Below are positions 56,660-63,656 of a stretch of 64,000 nt of DNA, one piece after another. This DNA is from Salinicola corii. GTDB taxonomy: Bacteria; Pseudomonadota; Gammaproteobacteria; Pseudomonadales; Halomonadaceae. Location of the stretch: NCBI RefSeq assembly GCF_008298015.1, contig NZ_VTPX01000006.1, forward strand, positions 1 to 64,000, given 5' to 3'. The position numbers and the translations under genes were made by a program. The notes below the pieces were generated by a model that saw only the letters and a list, made by a program, of their open reading frames with translations, was not told the DNA's origin and ran no database searches. Position 1 is the stretch's first letter, and every line of letters starts with the position of its first letter.

Positions 56660-56998
56660 GTGTCGAAGCCAGTCGACCCGGCTACCAAAGCGCAATCACG
56701 ATGGTGGTATCTCTATCTTATCGAGACCGCGAACGGTGCGCTCTACACCGGCATCACCACCGATATCGAGCGGCGTTTCGCCCAGCACGCCAGCGGCAAG
56801 GGCGCGCGGGCGCTGCGCGGCAAGGGGCCGCTGACCTTGCGACACGTCCAGGCGGTCGGCAGTCACGGCGACGCGCTCCGACTCGAGGCCGCGATCAAGC
56901 GACTCAGCGCGGCCGGCAAACGGCGCTGGATCGAGCGTCAGGTGTTGTCATCATATTGTCACCGAAACGTCATCTTGGCGGAGCCCCCCACGCCGTAG
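56660..56998 (+). CDS. GIY-YIG nuclease family protein
   Basis: 112 residues of the small YhbQ/UPF0213-type GIY-YIG group. The two core motifs are WYLYLIET (Tyr17-Leu-Tyr19 in place of GIY) and ALYTGITTD (YTGIT at 29-33), followed by the catalytic-type Arg of ERRFAQH and the conserved LRLEAAIKRLSAAGKRRWIE. Members are proposed DNA-structure nucleases, poorly characterised. The GTG start lies six bases after the rpe stop with GGGAG upstream, so it is probably cotranscribed with rpe. Confidence 0.85.
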   Translation: MSKPVDPATKAQSRWWYLYLIETANGALYTGITTDIERRFAQHASGKGARALRGKGPLTLRHVQAVGSHGDALRLEAAIKRLSAAGKRRWIERQVLSSYCHRNVILAEPPTP

Positions 56999-57041
56999 AA
57001 TCCGAGACACTATCCGACGACTCAGTGGAAATGTCTCGATC

Positions 57042-57788
57042 ATGAAAGTGGTGGCCCTGCACAACCTCAAAGGCGGCGTCGGCAAGAGTTCGGCCGCCGT
57101 CAATATGGCCCGAGAGGCCAATCGCGATGGCCTGCCGGTTCTGCTGTGGGATCTCGATGCGCAGGGTGCCTCCACCTGGATTCTCGGTGGGGAAGACGGT
57201 ATGAGTCGCAAGGTCGGCAAGCTGTTGGCGGGCAAGTCGCCACTGGGCGAGCAGGTCCAGCACACGCCCTGGGAGCGTTTCGATCTGCTGCCAGCAGACA
57301 TGCGACTGCGCGAACTCGACCGTATTCTCGGCGACAAGGCCGATGGCGACAAGCACCTGAAGCGGCTGATCGCACCGTTCAGCGAGGAGTACGCGCTGAT
57401 GATCCTGGACTGTCCGCCTGGGCTCTCCACACTGGCCGACCAGTTGATCCGTGCCGCCGATCGCATTCTGGTGCCGACCATCCCCAGCCCGCTATCGGTC
57501 CAGGCCTTCTCGCGCATGCTTGAACATCTTGACCTCAAGAAACGCCAGCGCCAGCGGCTGACGCCGTTCTTCAACCTGGTCGACCGGCGGCGGACGCTAC
57601 ACCGCGAATGGCTCGAGGCGCCGCCGGCTGCCATCGGGGCGCCGATGCAGACCTGGATTCCCTACGCCAGCGACGTCGAGCGCATGAGCCTGGAGTGCCG
57701 CCCGCTGGCGGACCTGGCGCCACGTAGTCGCGCCACCCACGCCTACCGTCGTCTATGGCAGGAGCTCAAGACGGAACTGGGCGAATAG
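57042..57788 (+). CDS. ParA-family ATPase without a ParB partner
   Basis: 248 residues with the deviant Walker A KGGVGKSS (Lys10 to Ser17, signature Lys10 and Lys15), the A' box LLWDLDAQGASTWIL and Walker B LMILDCPPGLSTLADQLIRAADRILVPTIPSPLS. This is a chromosome- or plasmid-type ParA/Soj relative. No ParB or CopG-type gene is adjacent, and the neighbours (GIY-YIG nuclease, FAN1) are not partition genes. It may position another cargo. The role is unknown. Confidence 0.85.
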   Translation: MKVVALHNLKGGVGKSSAAVNMAREANRDGLPVLLWDLDAQGASTWILGGEDGMSRKVGKLLAGKSPLGEQVQHTPWERFDLLPADMRLRELDRILGDKADGDKHLKRLIAPFSEEYALMILDCPPGLSTLADQLIRAADRILVPTIPSPLSVQAFSRMLEHLDLKKRQRQRLTPFFNLVDRRRTLHREWLEAPPAAIGAPMQTWIPYASDVERMSLECRPLADLAPRSRATHAYRRLWQELKTELGE

Positions 57789-57820
57789 CCACGACAACGC
57801 TTCGAACGCCTCTCTTGGGT

Positions 57821-57836
57821 CTGTATACTTACCCAG
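57821..57836 (+). promoter_or_regulatory. Candidate LexA (SOS) box of the FAN1-helicase operon
   Basis: CTGTATACTTACCCAG fits the CTG-N10-CAG frame of the gammaproteobacterial LexA operator, with the left half CTGTATA perfect and the right half weaker. It lies 27 bases before the FAN1 ATG and overlaps a TATACT -10 hexamer, the usual arrangement for SOS repression. Confidence 0.5.
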
Positions 57837-57862
57837 TGTTTTGAGTCTACGCTGGGGAAGCC

Positions 57863-59590
57863 ATGGCGCTGTCGACGCTCGAAGACCCGCTCTACTATCT
57901 CGCCAATTTCCGCCGCGTGCTTGACTGGCTGACGTCGCGTTACGCCGATGTGTTGAGCGTCGACGAGGCCGCTTTCATCGCTGATTTCCAACGTCTGCCC
58001 CAGCCCTCCCAGGCGCTGCTGGTCAGGATGATCATGCGCCGGGGTGTCGATTTTCGGGCCAGCCGCCTCGACTATGCGGAGATTGGCGATACACGGGCGG
58101 CGGCCGAGCCGCTGATCGCGGCCGGCTGGATCGAGGAGGGCGCGCCGCTGTCGCTGGAGGCGCTGTTCGCGCTGACGACCCGGCCGGAGATCGGTGCGCA
58201 GCTGGGCGGCTGGCTGGCGACATGCGGTCTCTCCCGGGGCGCCGGCAAGGGGGTATGGCTGGCGGCGCTGCAGGCAGAGTCTCCCGAGCCCCGCCCCCTG
58301 GCCGAGTGGGCGCCGGGACTTGAGGATCGTCACTACCGGTTGAGCGTCGATGCGATGTGCGAGCGTTTCCGGCTGATGTTCTTCGGCAATCTGCGTCAGC
58401 AGTGGTCGGAGTTCGTGCTGGCGGAGCTCGGCGTCTACCGTTTCGAGACCATCGAGCTGGAGGCAACCTCGCGAGCGTTCTCCCGGCGCCAGGAACTGGA
58501 GGCCTATCAACACCTGCACCGCTGCCGGGAGCGTTTCGAGGCCGATGAAGCGATGGAGTCGCTGCTGGCCGATGTTCCACGCCTGCCGTTTGCCAATGAC
58601 TGGCTGGAGCGTCGCCGGGGGCGGTTGATCTACAAGCTGGCCTACCGTCTCGAACGCCAGGGCGAGCTCGATCAGGCCCTGGCGCTCTATCAAGACTGCT
58701 CGGCACCGGAGGCGCGGCTCCGCCGGATCCGGGTGCTGGAGGCGCAGCAGGCATTCAGCGATGCGCTGGCACTGGCCGAGCGGGCGGCAGCCGATCCCGT
58801 CAACGCGGCGGAACGCCAGGCGCTGGAACGGGTGCTGCCCCGGCTTCGTCGCAAGCTCGGCCTGGCGCCGGGGCGTCGGCCGGAGGCAATGCAGCCGCCG
58901 CGCCTGGACCTGGTGCTGCCCCGCGCCACCAGCGTCGAGCGGGCGGTGGCCCGGCATCTCTGCCGTGACGAGGCGCCGGTCTGCTACGTCGAGAACGCGC
59001 TCGTCAATGGTTTGTTCGGGCTGCTCTGCTGGGAAGCGATCTTCGCGCCACTGCCCGGCGCCTTCTTTCATCCGTTCCACTCGGGGCCGGTGGATCTGTT
59101 CGAGGCGGACTTCCAGGTGCGCCGGCGCGACCGGTTCGACAGCTGTCTGGCAGCGCTCGAGACGGGCGACTACGGCGCGATCATCCGTCGACGCTATCGC
59201 GAGAAGTGGGGGATCCAGTCACCCTTTGTGTTCTGGGAAGCGCTCGACGAGCACCTGCTGGAGCTGGCCCTGCAGTGTATCCCGGCGCGCCACCTGCGGC
59301 TCTGGTTCGAGCGGCTTCTCGGCGACGTCCGTGCCAACCGTGCCGGGATGCCGGATCTGATCCAGTTCTGGCCGGAAAACGCTGATCCCTCGCAGGCGAC
59401 GCGTTATCGCATGATCGAAGTGAAGGGCCCCGGTGATCGCCTGCAGGACAACCAGAAGCGCTGGCTGGATTTCTGCGCCCGACACGACATGGCGGTCAGT
59501 GTCTGCTACGTCAGTTGGGCCTCCGAGGGCGATGTCGAGGTGGCAGGCCTCCCCGGTCCCGACACGGCCGTGACCGGGAGCGATTCTTGA
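57863..59590 (+). CDS. FAN1-like structure-specific nuclease (VRR-NUC domain)
   Basis: Bacterial counterpart of Fanconi-associated nuclease 1, which cuts 5' flaps and unhooks DNA interstrand crosslinks. 575 residues: helical N-terminal DNA-binding region (YYLANFRRVLDWL), a winged-helix or SAP-like part, TPR-like helices in the middle (about 230-330), and the C-terminal VRR-NUC domain. The active site is visible as Asp498 (GMPDLIQFW), Glu519 and Lys521 (IEVKGPGDRLQDNQKRW), all intact. Its TGA overlaps the TTG start of the helicase gene, so the two proteins are coupled. A candidate LexA box precedes it. Confidence 0.9.
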   Translation: MALSTLEDPLYYLANFRRVLDWLTSRYADVLSVDEAAFIADFQRLPQPSQALLVRMIMRRGVDFRASRLDYAEIGDTRAAAEPLIAAGWIEEGAPLSLEALFALTTRPEIGAQLGGWLATCGLSRGAGKGVWLAALQAESPEPRPLAEWAPGLEDRHYRLSVDAMCERFRLMFFGNLRQQWSEFVLAELGVYRFETIELEATSRAFSRRQELEAYQHLHRCRERFEADEAMESLLADVPRLPFANDWLERRRGRLIYKLAYRLERQGELDQALALYQDCSAPEARLRRIRVLEAQQAFSDALALAERAAADPVNAAERQALERVLPRLRRKLGLAPGRRPEAMQPPRLDLVLPRATSVERAVARHLCRDEAPVCYVENALVNGLFGLLCWEAIFAPLPGAFFHPFHSGPVDLFEADFQVRRRDRFDSCLAALETGDYGAIIRRRYREKWGIQSPFVFWEALDEHLLELALQCIPARHLRLWFERLLGDVRANRAGMPDLIQFWPENADPSQATRYRMIEVKGPGDRLQDNQKRWLDFCARHDMAVSVCYVSWASEGDVEVAGLPGPDTAVTGSDS

Positions 59591-61902
59591 GCTACCGGAT
59601 CGCCGTCCGGGCGCTGTGCGAGTTCGCGGCCAAGCGTGGCGATCTCGATCTGCGCTTCACGCCGTCGCCCTCGGCGCAGGAGGGGATCGCCGGCCATCAG
59701 CTCGTCGCGGCGCGCCGCGGCGAACGTTACGAGCGCGAGATTGCCTTGAGCGGCAGCTATCACCATCTCGAAGTGCGCGGGCGTGCCGATGGTTACGATC
59801 CCGACGCCAACCGGCTGGAAGAGATCAAGACACATCGCGGAGACCTCGCCCGTCAGCCGGCCAATCAGCGGGCGCTGCACTGGGCACAGGCCAAGGTCTA
59901 TGGACATCTGCTGTGCGCCGAACGCGGGCTGGACCAACTCACGGTAACGCTGGTCTATTTCGATATCGTCAGCCAGCGCGAAACGCCCCTGGCCGAGCAA
60001 TGCTCCGCCGGGGCTCTGCGTGCCGAATTCGAGGCGCACTGTCAGGCATTTCTGGCCTGGGCGCAGCAGGAGCTGGCCCATCGCCGCCGCCGGGACAACG
60101 CCCTGAAGTCGCTCCGCTTTCCCCATGCCGGTTTCCGCGAAGGCCAGCGTCCGTTGGCCGAATCCGTCTACAAGGCCATCCACACCGGGCGCTGGCTGAT
60201 GCTGCAGGCGCCCACCGGTATCGGCAAGACGCTGGGGACGCTGTTTCCGCTGCTCAAGGCGATGCCTGGCGAGCCGCTGGACAAGGTCCTCTTCCTGACG
60301 GCGCGCAATACCGGGCAGCGACTCGCCCTCGAGGCGTTGCAGACGCTGGGCGCAGGTGGCCGTTGCCACCGTGGCGAGTCGCGTGTCCCCGTGCCCGACG
60401 GGACCGGGGCGCTGCCCCTGCGGGTGCTGACGCTGACGGCCCGCGACAACAGCTGTGAGCACCCCTACAAGGCCTGTCACGGCGACTCCTGCCCGCTGGC
60501 CGCCGGTTTTTACGATCGCCTGCCCGCGGCCCGCGCGGCGGCGGTCGAACGCGGCTGGCTCGATCGTGCCGGCCTGCGGGATACCGCGCTTGCCCACGAC
60601 ATCTGCCCCTATTACCTCGGCCAGGAGATGGCGCGCTGGGCCGATATCGTCGTCGGCGACGTCAACTACTGGTTCGATTTTCACGCCATGCTCTATGCCT
60701 TGAGCCAGCAGCAGCAGTGGCGGGTCGGAGTGCTGGTCGACGAGGCTCACAATCTGGTGGAACGCGGGCGCGGCATGTACAGCGCGACGCTGGACCACGG
60801 TGCTTTCCGGCGCCTGAAGCCGACGTTGCCGGCGCCGCTCAAGCGGCCGTTCTCGCGGCTGGCCGCTATCTGGCAGGCGCTGGCGGACGAGAGCAAATCG
60901 GACTATCGGGTCATCGAGACGCTGCCCGGCAAGCTGATCGGGGCGCTGCAGCAAGCGGTTTCGCAGGTGGTCGAGTATCAGAGCGAGCAGCCGATCGCGC
61001 TCGACGGCGAATTGCAGCGATTCGCCTTCGACGCCCAGCACTTCTGCCGCGTCGCCGATGTCTTCGGCGAACATTCGATCTGTGACGTGACCCGCCAGGC
61101 GCCCCGCGGACGCCAGCGCCGCGCCGGGGCGCAGGTGACGTTGCGCAACGTGGTGCCGGCGCCGTTCCTGGCGCCGCGATTCGCCGCGGCGCATGGCGGC
61201 ACTCTGTTTTCCGCCACGCTGACCCCGGAAGCCTACTATCGCGATCTGCTCGGCGTGGCACCGGACGCGCCCTGGCTATCGCTGGATTCACCGTTCCACG
61301 ACTCGCAACTGGCGGTGCACGTCGCCGCATCGCTGTCGACGCGTTACGTCGACCGCGATGCCTCGCTCACGCCGCTGGCGGACCGGATCGCCGCCCAGTT
61401 CCGGGCACGTCGCGGCAACTATCTGGCGTTTTTCTCGAGCTTCGCCTACCTCGAACGGGTTGCCGATCGTCTGGCCGAACGCCATCCCGACGTGCCGTCA
61501 TGGCGACAGGCCTCACGCATGGATGATGCCGCCCGGGAGGCATTCCTGGCCCGGTTCGAAGCGAGCGGGGAGGGGGTAGGCTTTGCCGTACTGGGCGGGA
61601 TCTTCGGCGAAGGCATCGATCTCCCCGGCGATCGCCTGATCGGCGCCTTCGTCGCGACGCTGGGATTGCCCCAGGTCAACCCCGTCAATGAGCAGATGCG
61701 CGCCAGGCTGCAGGCGCTCTACGGTCATGGCTACGATTACGCCTATTTTTTTCCGGGCATGCAGAAAGTGGTGCAAGCTGCCGGACGCGTGATTCGCTCG
61801 CCGCAGGACGAGGGCGTGATCCACCTGCTCGACGATCGTTTTAGCCGGCGCGAGGCCCAGGCACTATTGCCGGACTGGTGGCCGCCGGCTTTGTGGGATT
61901 GA
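59587..61902 (+). CDS. XPD/DinG-like iron-sulfur helicase fused to an N-terminal PD-(D/E)xK nuclease
   Basis: 771 residues from a TTG start at 59587 that overlaps the FAN1 stop (TTGA); the open frame upstream lies within FAN1. The N-terminal domain has a RecB/Cas4-like nuclease site, Asp68 (GRADGY), Glu79 and Lys81 (EIKTH). The helicase part has Walker A APTGIGKT (Lys214), DEAH at 385-388, and four cysteines (290, 297, 302, 340) spaced for a [4Fe-4S] cluster as in XPD/Rad3. The C-terminal motor has VGFAVLGGIFGEGIDLPG and the motif VI-like QAAGRVIRS. FAN1 plus this helicase is probably a crosslink-repair pair. Confidence 0.88.
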   Translation: MSYRIAVRALCEFAAKRGDLDLRFTPSPSAQEGIAGHQLVAARRGERYEREIALSGSYHHLEVRGRADGYDPDANRLEEIKTHRGDLARQPANQRALHWAQAKVYGHLLCAERGLDQLTVTLVYFDIVSQRETPLAEQCSAGALRAEFEAHCQAFLAWAQQELAHRRRRDNALKSLRFPHAGFREGQRPLAESVYKAIHTGRWLMLQAPTGIGKTLGTLFPLLKAMPGEPLDKVLFLTARNTGQRLALEALQTLGAGGRCHRGESRVPVPDGTGALPLRVLTLTARDNSCEHPYKACHGDSCPLAAGFYDRLPAARAAAVERGWLDRAGLRDTALAHDICPYYLGQEMARWADIVVGDVNYWFDFHAMLYALSQQQQWRVGVLVDEAHNLVERGRGMYSATLDHGAFRRLKPTLPAPLKRPFSRLAAIWQALADESKSDYRVIETLPGKLIGALQQAVSQVVEYQSEQPIALDGELQRFAFDAQHFCRVADVFGEHSICDVTRQAPRGRQRRAGAQVTLRNVVPAPFLAPRFAAAHGGTLFSATLTPEAYYRDLLGVAPDAPWLSLDSPFHDSQLAVHVAASLSTRYVDRDASLTPLADRIAAQFRARRGNYLAFFSSFAYLERVADRLAERHPDVPSWRQASRMDDAAREAFLARFEASGEGVGFAVLGGIFGEGIDLPGDRLIGAFVATLGLPQVNPVNEQMRARLQALYGHGYDYAYFFPGMQKVVQAAGRVIRSPQDEGVIHLLDDRFSRREAQALLPDWWPPALWD

Positions 61903-62003
61903 CCAGGGCAGAGACGAGCACCCGGGTGGTCGATTGCCCGGCAGTGGTAGTCTTGCCATATTGAAATGAGTCGCGTGGGCAAAGCACGGGCGGCGTGACG
62001 CTG

Positions 62004-63656
62004 TTATCCCATCGTCGCCAATGCCTCGAACACTCTTGCCACCGCCTCGGCGCCGGGGTCGACGACGCCCTTGAGCGCGCTCTCTGGCACGTAGGCGGAC
62101 CGACCGGCGTTGGCGCGGACGAGTTGGGCAGTGGCCTGGGCACCATCGCGAGCGGCCTGCGCTGCTTGGGCCAGCGATTCACCCCGCTGCAGTGACTCAA
62201 TGGCAGGGATCAGGGCGTCGAGCATGGTACGGTCGCCGGGCTTGGCGCCGCCGTAGGCCTGCACCTTCTCGACGCCGGCGGCGAGCGCCTCGTCGAGTTT
62301 GCCACGTCGATCCAGCGAGGCAGCGGCTGCGGTAAACAGGATCGATAGCAGTACGCCGCTGGAGCCACCCATTTCCCGCGAAAGGAGCTGGCCGATACCG
62401 GCGAACATCAATGGCAGGGCTTCGGTGTTGAGTCGGTTGGCCGACAGCGCCCTGGCGATCGACTCGGCGCCGCTCTCCATGCTGGCGCCGGCGTCACCGT
62501 CGCCACTTTTTGCGTCGAGGGCGTCGAGCTCCTGGCGCGATTGGCGCAGGGTCTCGATGACCCGCTCGAGAAGGGCGGAAGTGCCGGGATCCTGCGGGGC
62601 ATCGTCGGCCAGTGCCTCATGATCCTGTCGGGTATCCGGAGAAAAGTGGGCGGGAGCCTGGGCGACGTGCAAACCGGGCCAGGCCGGCGCCGTCGTCGGG
62701 GCCGACAGCGCCTCGACGACATCGTCGTCGGCCGGCAGCAGCGTGAGCGAGAAGCCGTGCATGTCCAGCGAGGTCATCAGCGGCGCCGGGCCGATCAGAT
62801 GGGCTATCTGATTGACGCCCAGTTGGCGCAGCAGGCTGGCGGTCAGCACCCCCATCTCCTGGGTGGAACAGCTGCCAAGGTCGTTGAGCATCGCGATCCA
62901 GGGCCCGGAGAGCTTGCGGTCGGACAGGGCGTCGCGCAACGGCTCGAGCACCAGTCGCATCGCCTCGTCGGCATTCTTTGGATTGACCTCCCGCGTGCCG
63001 GTCTCGTTGTGAATACCCAGGCCCAGTTCCGGCGAGCGCTCGGCGGCTGCCTGGCCCGGCTGGGCCGCGGCGCTGAGCGCCATGCCCAGCGACCCCATTC
63101 GCTGGCACAGGGCTTCGGCGCGCTCGAGGATGGCGTTCAGCGGCAGTTCCCGGCTCGCCAGATGACCGCTCAGCTTGTGCACCAGCACGGTGCCGGCGAT
63201 GCCTCTCGGTTGCGGGGCATTTTCGATGGCGACATCGTCGGCGACGATGACCATGGCAACGTCCAGTCCCTCGCCTCGGGCACGCTCGGCGGCGAGGCCG
63301 AAGTTGAGGCGATCACCGGTATAGTTCTTGACCACCAGCAGGCAGCCGGCCTCGCCGCAGACTTCGCGAATGGCAGCGAGTACCGCCTCGACGCTGGGCG
63401 AGGCGAACAGGCTGCCGGAGATCGCTCCGGTCAACATGCCCTCGCCGATATAACCGGCATGTGCTGGCTCGTGACCGGCCCCACCGCCGGACAATATCGC
63501 GACCTGGTGTCGGCCCTGATCCGCTTTGTCCCAGTCGCGGCGGATCAGGATTCGCAGACCGCTCTCCGGTTCGGCGACACGCAGTGGAGCGGTTACAGCC
63601 GCCGCTCTCAAAATCTCGTCGACGACATCGCCGGGGGCATTGTAGAAACGATCCAT
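62004..63656 (-). CDS. dhaK: ATP-dependent dihydroxyacetone kinase (DhaK-DhaL fusion)
   Basis: 550 residues joining both domains of the Citrobacter-type ATP-using kinase. The DhaK part (1-330) has SGGGAGHEPAHAGYIG, NYTGD (Asp115) and the substrate-binding His216 in GIHNETG. The DhaL part (about 355-550) has the Mg-ATP motif DAKSGDGDAGASMESGAE and MGGSSGVLLS. It phosphorylates dihydroxyacetone to DHAP in glycerol or DHA use. PTS-type DHA kinase genes are separate, so this is the ATP type. It starts 34 bp after the ndh stop. Confidence 0.92.
   Translation of the reverse strand: MDRFYNAPGDVVDEILRAAAVTAPLRVAEPESGLRILIRRDWDKADQGRHQVAILSGGGAGHEPAHAGYIGEGMLTGAISGSLFASPSVEAVLAAIREVCGEAGCLLVVKNYTGDRLNFGLAAERARGEGLDVAMVIVADDVAIENAPQPRGIAGTVLVHKLSGHLASRELPLNAILERAEALCQRMGSLGMALSAAAQPGQAAAERSPELGLGIHNETGTREVNPKNADEAMRLVLEPLRDALSDRKLSGPWIAMLNDLGSCSTQEMGVLTASLLRQLGVNQIAHLIGPAPLMTSLDMHGFSLTLLPADDDVVEALSAPTTAPAWPGLHVAQAPAHFSPDTRQDHEALADDAPQDPGTSALLERVIETLRQSRQELDALDAKSGDGDAGASMESGAESIARALSANRLNTEALPLMFAGIGQLLSREMGGSSGVLLSILFTAAAASLDRRGKLDEALAAGVEKVQAYGGAKPGDRTMLDALIPAIESLQRGESLAQAAQAARDGAQATAQLVRANAGRSAYVPESALKGVVDPGAEAVARVFEALATMG

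Follow-up and report, generated by a model that had tools for sequence, protein, structure and literature searches.

A conserved putative LexA operator upstream of the FAN1 and EndoDinG-type helicase-nuclease gene pair of Salinicola corii and many relatives

In humans, crosslink repair employs FAN1 together with FANCJ, a helicase of the XPD family. A link to crosslink repair is also described for bacterial FAN1, and 5' flap cutting and crosslink unhooking are reported for the Pseudomonas aeruginosa enzyme, PaFAN1 (cited in the available parts of PMC9635880 and PMC12796719). Genes of the VRR-NUC subfamily T1p21 lie upstream of helicase genes (Iyer et al. 2006, cited in the available part of PMC9635880). 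In E. coli, the XPD-family helicases DinG and YoaA are under LexA, according to the available text of PMC11981726, which also refers to unpublished data on the endonuclease activity of a Bdellovibrio EndoDinG. The available part of a 2026 paper (PMC12796719) describes 18 P. aeruginosa genes that UV-C induces and for which no control by a LexA-like repressor is known. There, PA1865 (FAN1) and PA1866 are UV-C induced, belong to none of the three known regulons (LexA, Prt and Alp) and are both missing from the list of 15 LexA genes given by Cirz et al. 2006. Ciprofloxacin raises PA1865 as well and hydrogen peroxide represses it, though the cited peroxide studies saw SOS genes rise, and the same text concludes that further regulatory layers remain to be elucidated. 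The narrow list of about 15 LexA genes is repeated in the available part of PMC13114513.

We analysed a window of S. corii DNA, by which we mean the whole stretch of 64,000 nucleotides, and found in it a FAN1 gene followed by a helicase-nuclease gene. The features of the locus are:

57821–57836, no strand assigned: putative LexA operator (SOS box) CTGTATACTTACCCAG, the best lexA/recA-matrix site in 64 kb, conserved upstream of orthologous operons
57824–57829, forward strand: -10-like hexamer TATACT within the operator, recognized by eye
57863–59590, forward strand: FAN1, 575 aa, ATG start, with HTH, SAP and VRR-NUC domains
59587–61902, forward strand: EndoDinG-type XPD/Rad3 Fe-S helicase-nuclease, 771 aa, TTG start, with Walker GIGKT, DEAH and four cysteines
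59587–60120, forward strand: PD-(D/E)XK (RecE/Cas4/EXO5-like) nuclease domain at the helicase N-terminus, a predicted fold with H37, E51, D68, E79 and K81
59587–59590, forward strand: stop/start overlap TTGA of FAN1 and helicase, four bases of sequence common to both ORFs

The FAN1 protein matches PF21315, PF18081 and PF08774 above the cut-off in a profile search; TPR_14 stays below it (16.1 bits vs a cut-off of 23.5). The P. aeruginosa FAN1 structures 4r89 and 5y7g match its residues 5–553 with E of about 4e-178. Relatives were found at 128 loci, and after rows with internal stops were dropped, 116 of them were aligned with the window protein. In this alignment, D498 and K521 are present in 117 of 117 sequences and E519 in 116 of 117. 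The HTH/SAP/VRR-NUC architecture and the active site of D and E-x-K place the protein among the FAN1 nucleases.

The helicase gave Helicase_C_2 and DEAD_2 matches in the profile search. It does not belong to the canonical DinG or YoaA equivalogs of NCBIfam, scoring 69.5 of 598 bits for DinG and 88.5 of 680 for YoaA. By sequence (E <= 0.01), one near full-length PDB relative was found, 9kqh, which Foldseek names as Finegoldia magna DinG. The predicted model has a mean pLDDT of 87.4; residues 1–178 folded alone reach 92.4, and the Foldseek matches of this part, after 9kqh, are RecE (3h4r), SSO0001 (4ic1), phage-type exonucleases, EXO5 and Cas4. We aligned the window protein with the helicases of all 138 loci and made a further alignment of 25 sequences. 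H37 is found in 137 of the 139 sequences and E51, D68, E79 and K81 in 138 each; 97% or more of the sequences retain C290, C297, C302, C340 and D385-E386-A387-H388. Thus, an N-terminal PD-(D/E)XK domain with H/E/D/E/K joined to an Fe-S helicase makes the protein an EndoDinG. The initial annotation had judged both enzymes complete, naming Asp498/Glu519/Lys521 in FAN1 and Asp68/Glu79/Lys81, four Fe-S cysteines and DEAH in the helicase; all of these residues are there and almost invariant in relatives.

It had also described one operon whose genes overlap at TTGA. The ORF coordinates agree with the overlap, and the single operon is supported by adjacency, common strand, overlapping or close gene ends and co-occurrence. 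Wherever a locus holds both genes they are adjacent and on the same strand: 14/14 in Salinicola, 38/38 in other Halomonadaceae, 17/17 in Pseudomonadaceae and 70/70 among named loci. The genome and named-locus sets overlap, and several members look like the same strains. The gap is -4 in all 14 Salinicola loci. Seven loci computed as non-adjacent were counted as adjacent, because their negative gaps arose where the FAN1 frame ran into the helicase past the overlap or missed its stop. In six of the seven the aligned FAN1 and helicase ends are at most 30 bases apart, and in the seventh (L075, genome G023) about 20 bases lie between the two matches. Directly upstream of FAN1 in the window is a ParA/MinD-like ATPase gene (57042–57788). 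Of 129 loci, 24 have a ParA-like gene in this position, and 22 of these loci are Salinicola, so we place it outside the conserved setting of the operon; the other two are weak matches on the opposite strand. Two genes upstream of FAN1 there is a gene for a small GIY-YIG domain protein (56660–56998), of nuclease type and perhaps there by coincidence.

The nearest named relatives belong to Salinicola, with up to 96% in the helicase among the best 80 of 491 relatives. With limits of E <= 1e-60 for the helicase and E <= 1e-20 for FAN1, 105 of 121 Halomonadaceae genomes have both genes and 16 have neither, with none carrying FAN1 only or the helicase only. Among 198 genomes assigned to Pseudomonadaceae by similarity and searched with the P. 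aeruginosa FAN1 sequence, 168 have both, two FAN1 only, one the helicase only and 27 neither. The Fisher p-values for co-occurrence are tiny, with relatedness ignored. In a class-wide set of 232 genomes few carry either gene, six the helicase and seven FAN1; G348, one of the seven, also has a divergent helicase next to its FAN1, which fell outside the strict limit. We fetched the loci of 52 of the other 104 Halomonadaceae genomes with the pair and of 20 Pseudomonadaceae genomes, including the three with one gene only. In G004, FAN1 (L154) and helicase (L155) share a contig but are separated by about 25 kb, and neither has a LexA-type box, a natural split of the pair; in G106 they are on different contigs, FAN1 being at a contig edge. 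As judged from these genomes, the FAN1-helicase pair is kept together over two families.

The candidate LexA box had been pointed out as CTG-N10-CAG, and CTGTATACTTACCCAG stands exactly at 57821–57836, where it had been placed. The bare pattern is not beyond chance, with 23 occurrences in the window vs 19.9 +/- 4.2 expected, and we rejected it as evidence of LexA. The site has four mismatches to the E. coli-type LexA consensus, and the window holds no match to that consensus at three mismatches or fewer. What the box is worth was judged by a symmetric matrix of 71 sites (45 distinct) in 58 promoters from 60 Halomonadaceae lexA/recA loci, with no FAN1 promoter in training; the training sites were chosen by likeness to the E. 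coli-type consensus, and a few are doubtful (lowest 4.7 bits). It turned out that the window site scores 18.5 bits vs 11.4 for the next best in 64 kb, a lead of 7 bits, and 0 of 2560 shuffled promoters reach its score. The lexA promoters of relatives carry, for example, CTGTATACTTAACCAA, which is close to CTGTATACTTACCCAG. The candidate thus holds up, ranking first in 64 kb and being conserved in relatives. Halomonadaceae lexA boxes (e.g., L092, L095, L102 and L107) often end in CAA, CAC or CAT and not CAG, possibly an operator form specific to the family. Elsewhere in the S. corii genome, LexA-type boxes with up to three mismatches occur near genes that we named by eye as imuA-like (L033), radical SAM (L034), YdjM-like hydrolase (L036) and a second radical SAM (L041).

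We scanned -150 to +45 of the FAN1 start in orthologous operons and set the threshold at 10.7 bits, the 99% level for dinucleotide-shuffled sequences; L144, with 59 bases only, was excluded. A site above this level is present in 13/14 Salinicola operons (14/14 above the 95% level), in 29/38 other Halomonadaceae operons (29/39 loci, the 39th being the solo FAN1 of G004) and in 69/70 named loci, which among them hold 29 distinct box sequences. All 17 fetched Pseudomonadaceae operons have a LexA-type site of at least 15.0 bits, and both fetched Burkholderia operons also pass the threshold. In the class set one of five scored loci has a site, and by similarity this locus (G265) belongs to Pseudomonadaceae. 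As a control, 21 of 5718 windows away from the FAN1 promoter in the same loci pass the threshold. The nine Halomonadaceae operons without a site are L060 and L061 (one genus), L062, L079, L081, L153, L159, and L156 and L157, the last two, both of genus g6, being just below the limit at 10.5 bits. Genera with the site are Salinicola, Halomonas, Modicisalibacter, Kushneria (3/4), Stutzerimonas, Pseudomonas, Halopseudomonas, Mangrovitalea, Undibacterium, Burkholderia and Duganella, plus one further Pseudomonadaceae. A weaker form, ATG-N10-CAG, accounts for 24 of the 29 passing sites in non-Salinicola Halomonadaceae; on the opposite strand it reads CTG-N10-CAT, a form also present at Halomonadaceae lexA and recA. 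In 25 representatives the box ends are conserved and the flanks have diverged, a comparison that overstates the box because the representatives were chosen by hand and centred on the best match. Since the ParA-like gene is mainly found in Salinicola, and the Salinicola loci L052 and L053 keep the box with no ParA-like gene upstream, the box goes with the operon.

The initial annotation had made its case depend on LexA sites being conserved upstream of orthologous operons, and boxes were found upstream of most operons examined. The misses are 1/14, 9/38, 1/70 and 4/5. Conservation of the operator in orthologues points to membership in the LexA regulon, and control of the operon by LexA is, judging by the operators, very likely. 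Most likely, two known enzyme families are joined here in a conserved repair operon under SOS control.

We also compared genes that stand apart from their partner. When the helicase has no adjacent FAN1, 13 of 16 proteobacterial loci have a matrix match upstream of the helicase, and the solo helicases of Cupriavidus have the near-perfect boxes CTGTATATTTATACAG and CTGTATATTCATACAG. Seven of the 13 boxed loci (L201, L206, L209, L223, L225, L231 and L238) are Pseudomonas with much the same box and probably represent one clade. Five of these seven helicases are downstream of what looks by eye like a GntR-like regulator frame. The loci without a box are L146, L155 and L235; a matrix match of L146 inside the coding part was excluded. 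A search of the plasmid collection gave 12 matches, six of which were fetched. The LexA class of Enterococcus recognises another motif, and for this reason the Enterococcus locus L276, which has no such box, was left out of the count. FAN1 genes without an adjacent helicase are boxed in 0 of 4 cases (L147, L154, L262 and L263, the last two from one genus); L148 was excluded from this set, as it holds a divergent helicase. The difference between 13/16 and 0/4 has a Fisher p of 0.007, uncorrected for relatedness and on the assumption that LexA in those genomes recognises the motif of the Halomonadaceae-trained matrix. The 17 Pseudomonadaceae operons gave no match right at the start of the helicase (best 7.0 bits). 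The box follows the helicase, not FAN1; therefore, it may be primarily the helicase that is tied to the SOS response.

These solo genes bear on the strongest rival explanation, which we consider rather unlikely. LexA would control both genes, yet the enzymes would work independently and form no shared complex, FAN1 on crosslinks or flaps and the helicase-nuclease on R-loops, forks and ends. The own LexA-type boxes of helicase-only loci agree with it, and such loci are found in Pseudomonas, Ramlibacter, Rhizobacter, Cupriavidus and Caballeronia. Since solo helicases and a few solo FAN1 genes exist, neither gene needs the other everywhere. However, in two families the genes occur together almost without exception and their ends overlap or lie close, which argues against independence and suggests that joint dosage matters. 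A joint repair pathway of FAN1 and the helicase seems fairly likely to us, and we infer joint action on crosslinks or blocked forks.

It is very unlikely that the pair is an anti-phage or anti-plasmid module of the CasDinG/DdmD kind, induced by SOS during attack. The PADLOC typeIV_DinG model PDLC01439 does match the helicase with 380.7 bits, and its Foldseek matches include CasDinG and DdmD. But there is no repeat array in 48–64 kb, the ParA-like protein alone among five neighbouring proteins has a PADLOC match, a weak one of 23.5 bits, the distribution in two families resembles that of a core gene, and 50,697 phage records contain no FAN1 match at E <= 1e-10. Type IV CRISPR CasDinG in particular was rejected, given the missing repeat array and no cas match among the five neighbouring proteins.

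The initial annotation had let the box overlap a -10 element, a claim that we do not keep, since TATACT was seen by eye only and a scan for consensus promoters found no sigma-70 promoter in 56900–62400. In many Halomonas-type genomes, the box is just downstream of a separate TATCAT-like (-10-like) element. Also very unlikely is that the box is a promoter element or a chance match and the operon lies outside LexA control, for although TATACT is inside the box, bare CTG-N10-CAG is common and the genes are missing from the published P. aeruginosa LexA list (available part of PMC12796719), the conserved ends and diverged flanks over many genera and the separate upstream -10-like element speak against it.

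Returning to a LexA-repressed SOS operon, we consider it likely on balance, taking the explanation as a whole, that intact FAN1 and EndoDinG are expressed together in the SOS response and act on stalled or crosslinked forks. RecA filaments would trigger LexA cleavage, and the operon would be derepressed. The Fe-S helicase, with the 5'-3' polarity of its family, would load on single-stranded DNA at the stalled or crosslinked fork and open the duplex. FAN1 could then cut the 5' flap or branch and unhook the lesion, the PD-(D/E)XK domain of the helicase might trim or cut the displaced strand, and recombination or translesion synthesis would finish the repair. The notion of a self-contained crosslink-repair machine, put forward initially, is supported in part. 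The FAN1-crosslink link in the available text of PMC9635880 and PMC12796719 is in line with it; contact between the two proteins and action of the helicase on crosslinks would be further assumptions, and in a number of genomes the helicase occurs without an adjacent FAN1.

The operon also bears on P. aeruginosa. A near relative of this species, G469, whose FAN1 is 93% identical, has the operon and the box CTGTATGCATGAACAG. We take PA1866 to be the helicase, as its tag comes directly after that of PA1865 and as FAN1 precedes the helicase in G469. PA1044/PA1045 was rejected as this pair, PA1045 being named as DinG in the available part of PMC12796719. The putative operator is a candidate answer to why UV-C induces PA1865/PA1866 with no known LexA-like regulator. 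A broader proposal, which we put forward tentatively, is that EndoDinG may be an SOS gene, with a LexA operator of its own, that is widespread in beta- and gammaproteobacteria, and that FAN1 may have been recruited behind this operator into the SOS response; the resulting damage-induced unit, like human FAN1/FANCJ, would explain the UV induction of PA1865/PA1866. Bacterial FAN1 has been studied so far as an enzyme, and the conserved putative LexA operator would put FAN1 and a helicase-nuclease in the SOS response. As a compact two-gene system, the operon is a genetically tractable case of FAN1 paired with a helicase of the XPD family.

Among the matches listed from the open-licence literature, we found nothing that connects FAN1 to this helicase or to LexA, and no regulator or partner of bacterial FAN1 beyond the UV-C/ciprofloxacin induction in PMC12796719. 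The enzyme families are already known; LexA regulation and the FAN1-helicase pairing seem to be new, as far as the open-licence matches listed go. The EndoDinG subgroup (available part of PMC11981726; F. magna 9kqh) has the same PD-(D/E)XK domain with H, E, D, E and K, the four-cysteine Fe-S domain and the XPD-type motors. Its description there (section 3.7) names no FAN1 partner and no SOS control, and the word FAN1 is absent from the main text of PMC11981726. The available text of PMC12796719 on PA1865/PA1866 mentions neither a partner helicase nor a LexA site. T1p21, as described in the available part of PMC9635880, likewise has a VRR-NUC gene upstream of a helicase, but this subfamily differs from the FAN1 (KIAA1018) group, and we liken the two by description. 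PaFAN1 (PA1865; 4r89, 5y7g) is a near full-length homologue of the window FAN1 with the same VRR-NUC active site. E. coli DinG and YoaA are likewise LexA-regulated members of the XPD family, but they belong to other subgroups and lack this nuclease domain. Human FAN1 with FANCJ shows the same pairing of FAN1 with a 5'-3' Fe-S helicase, which we regard as an analogy.
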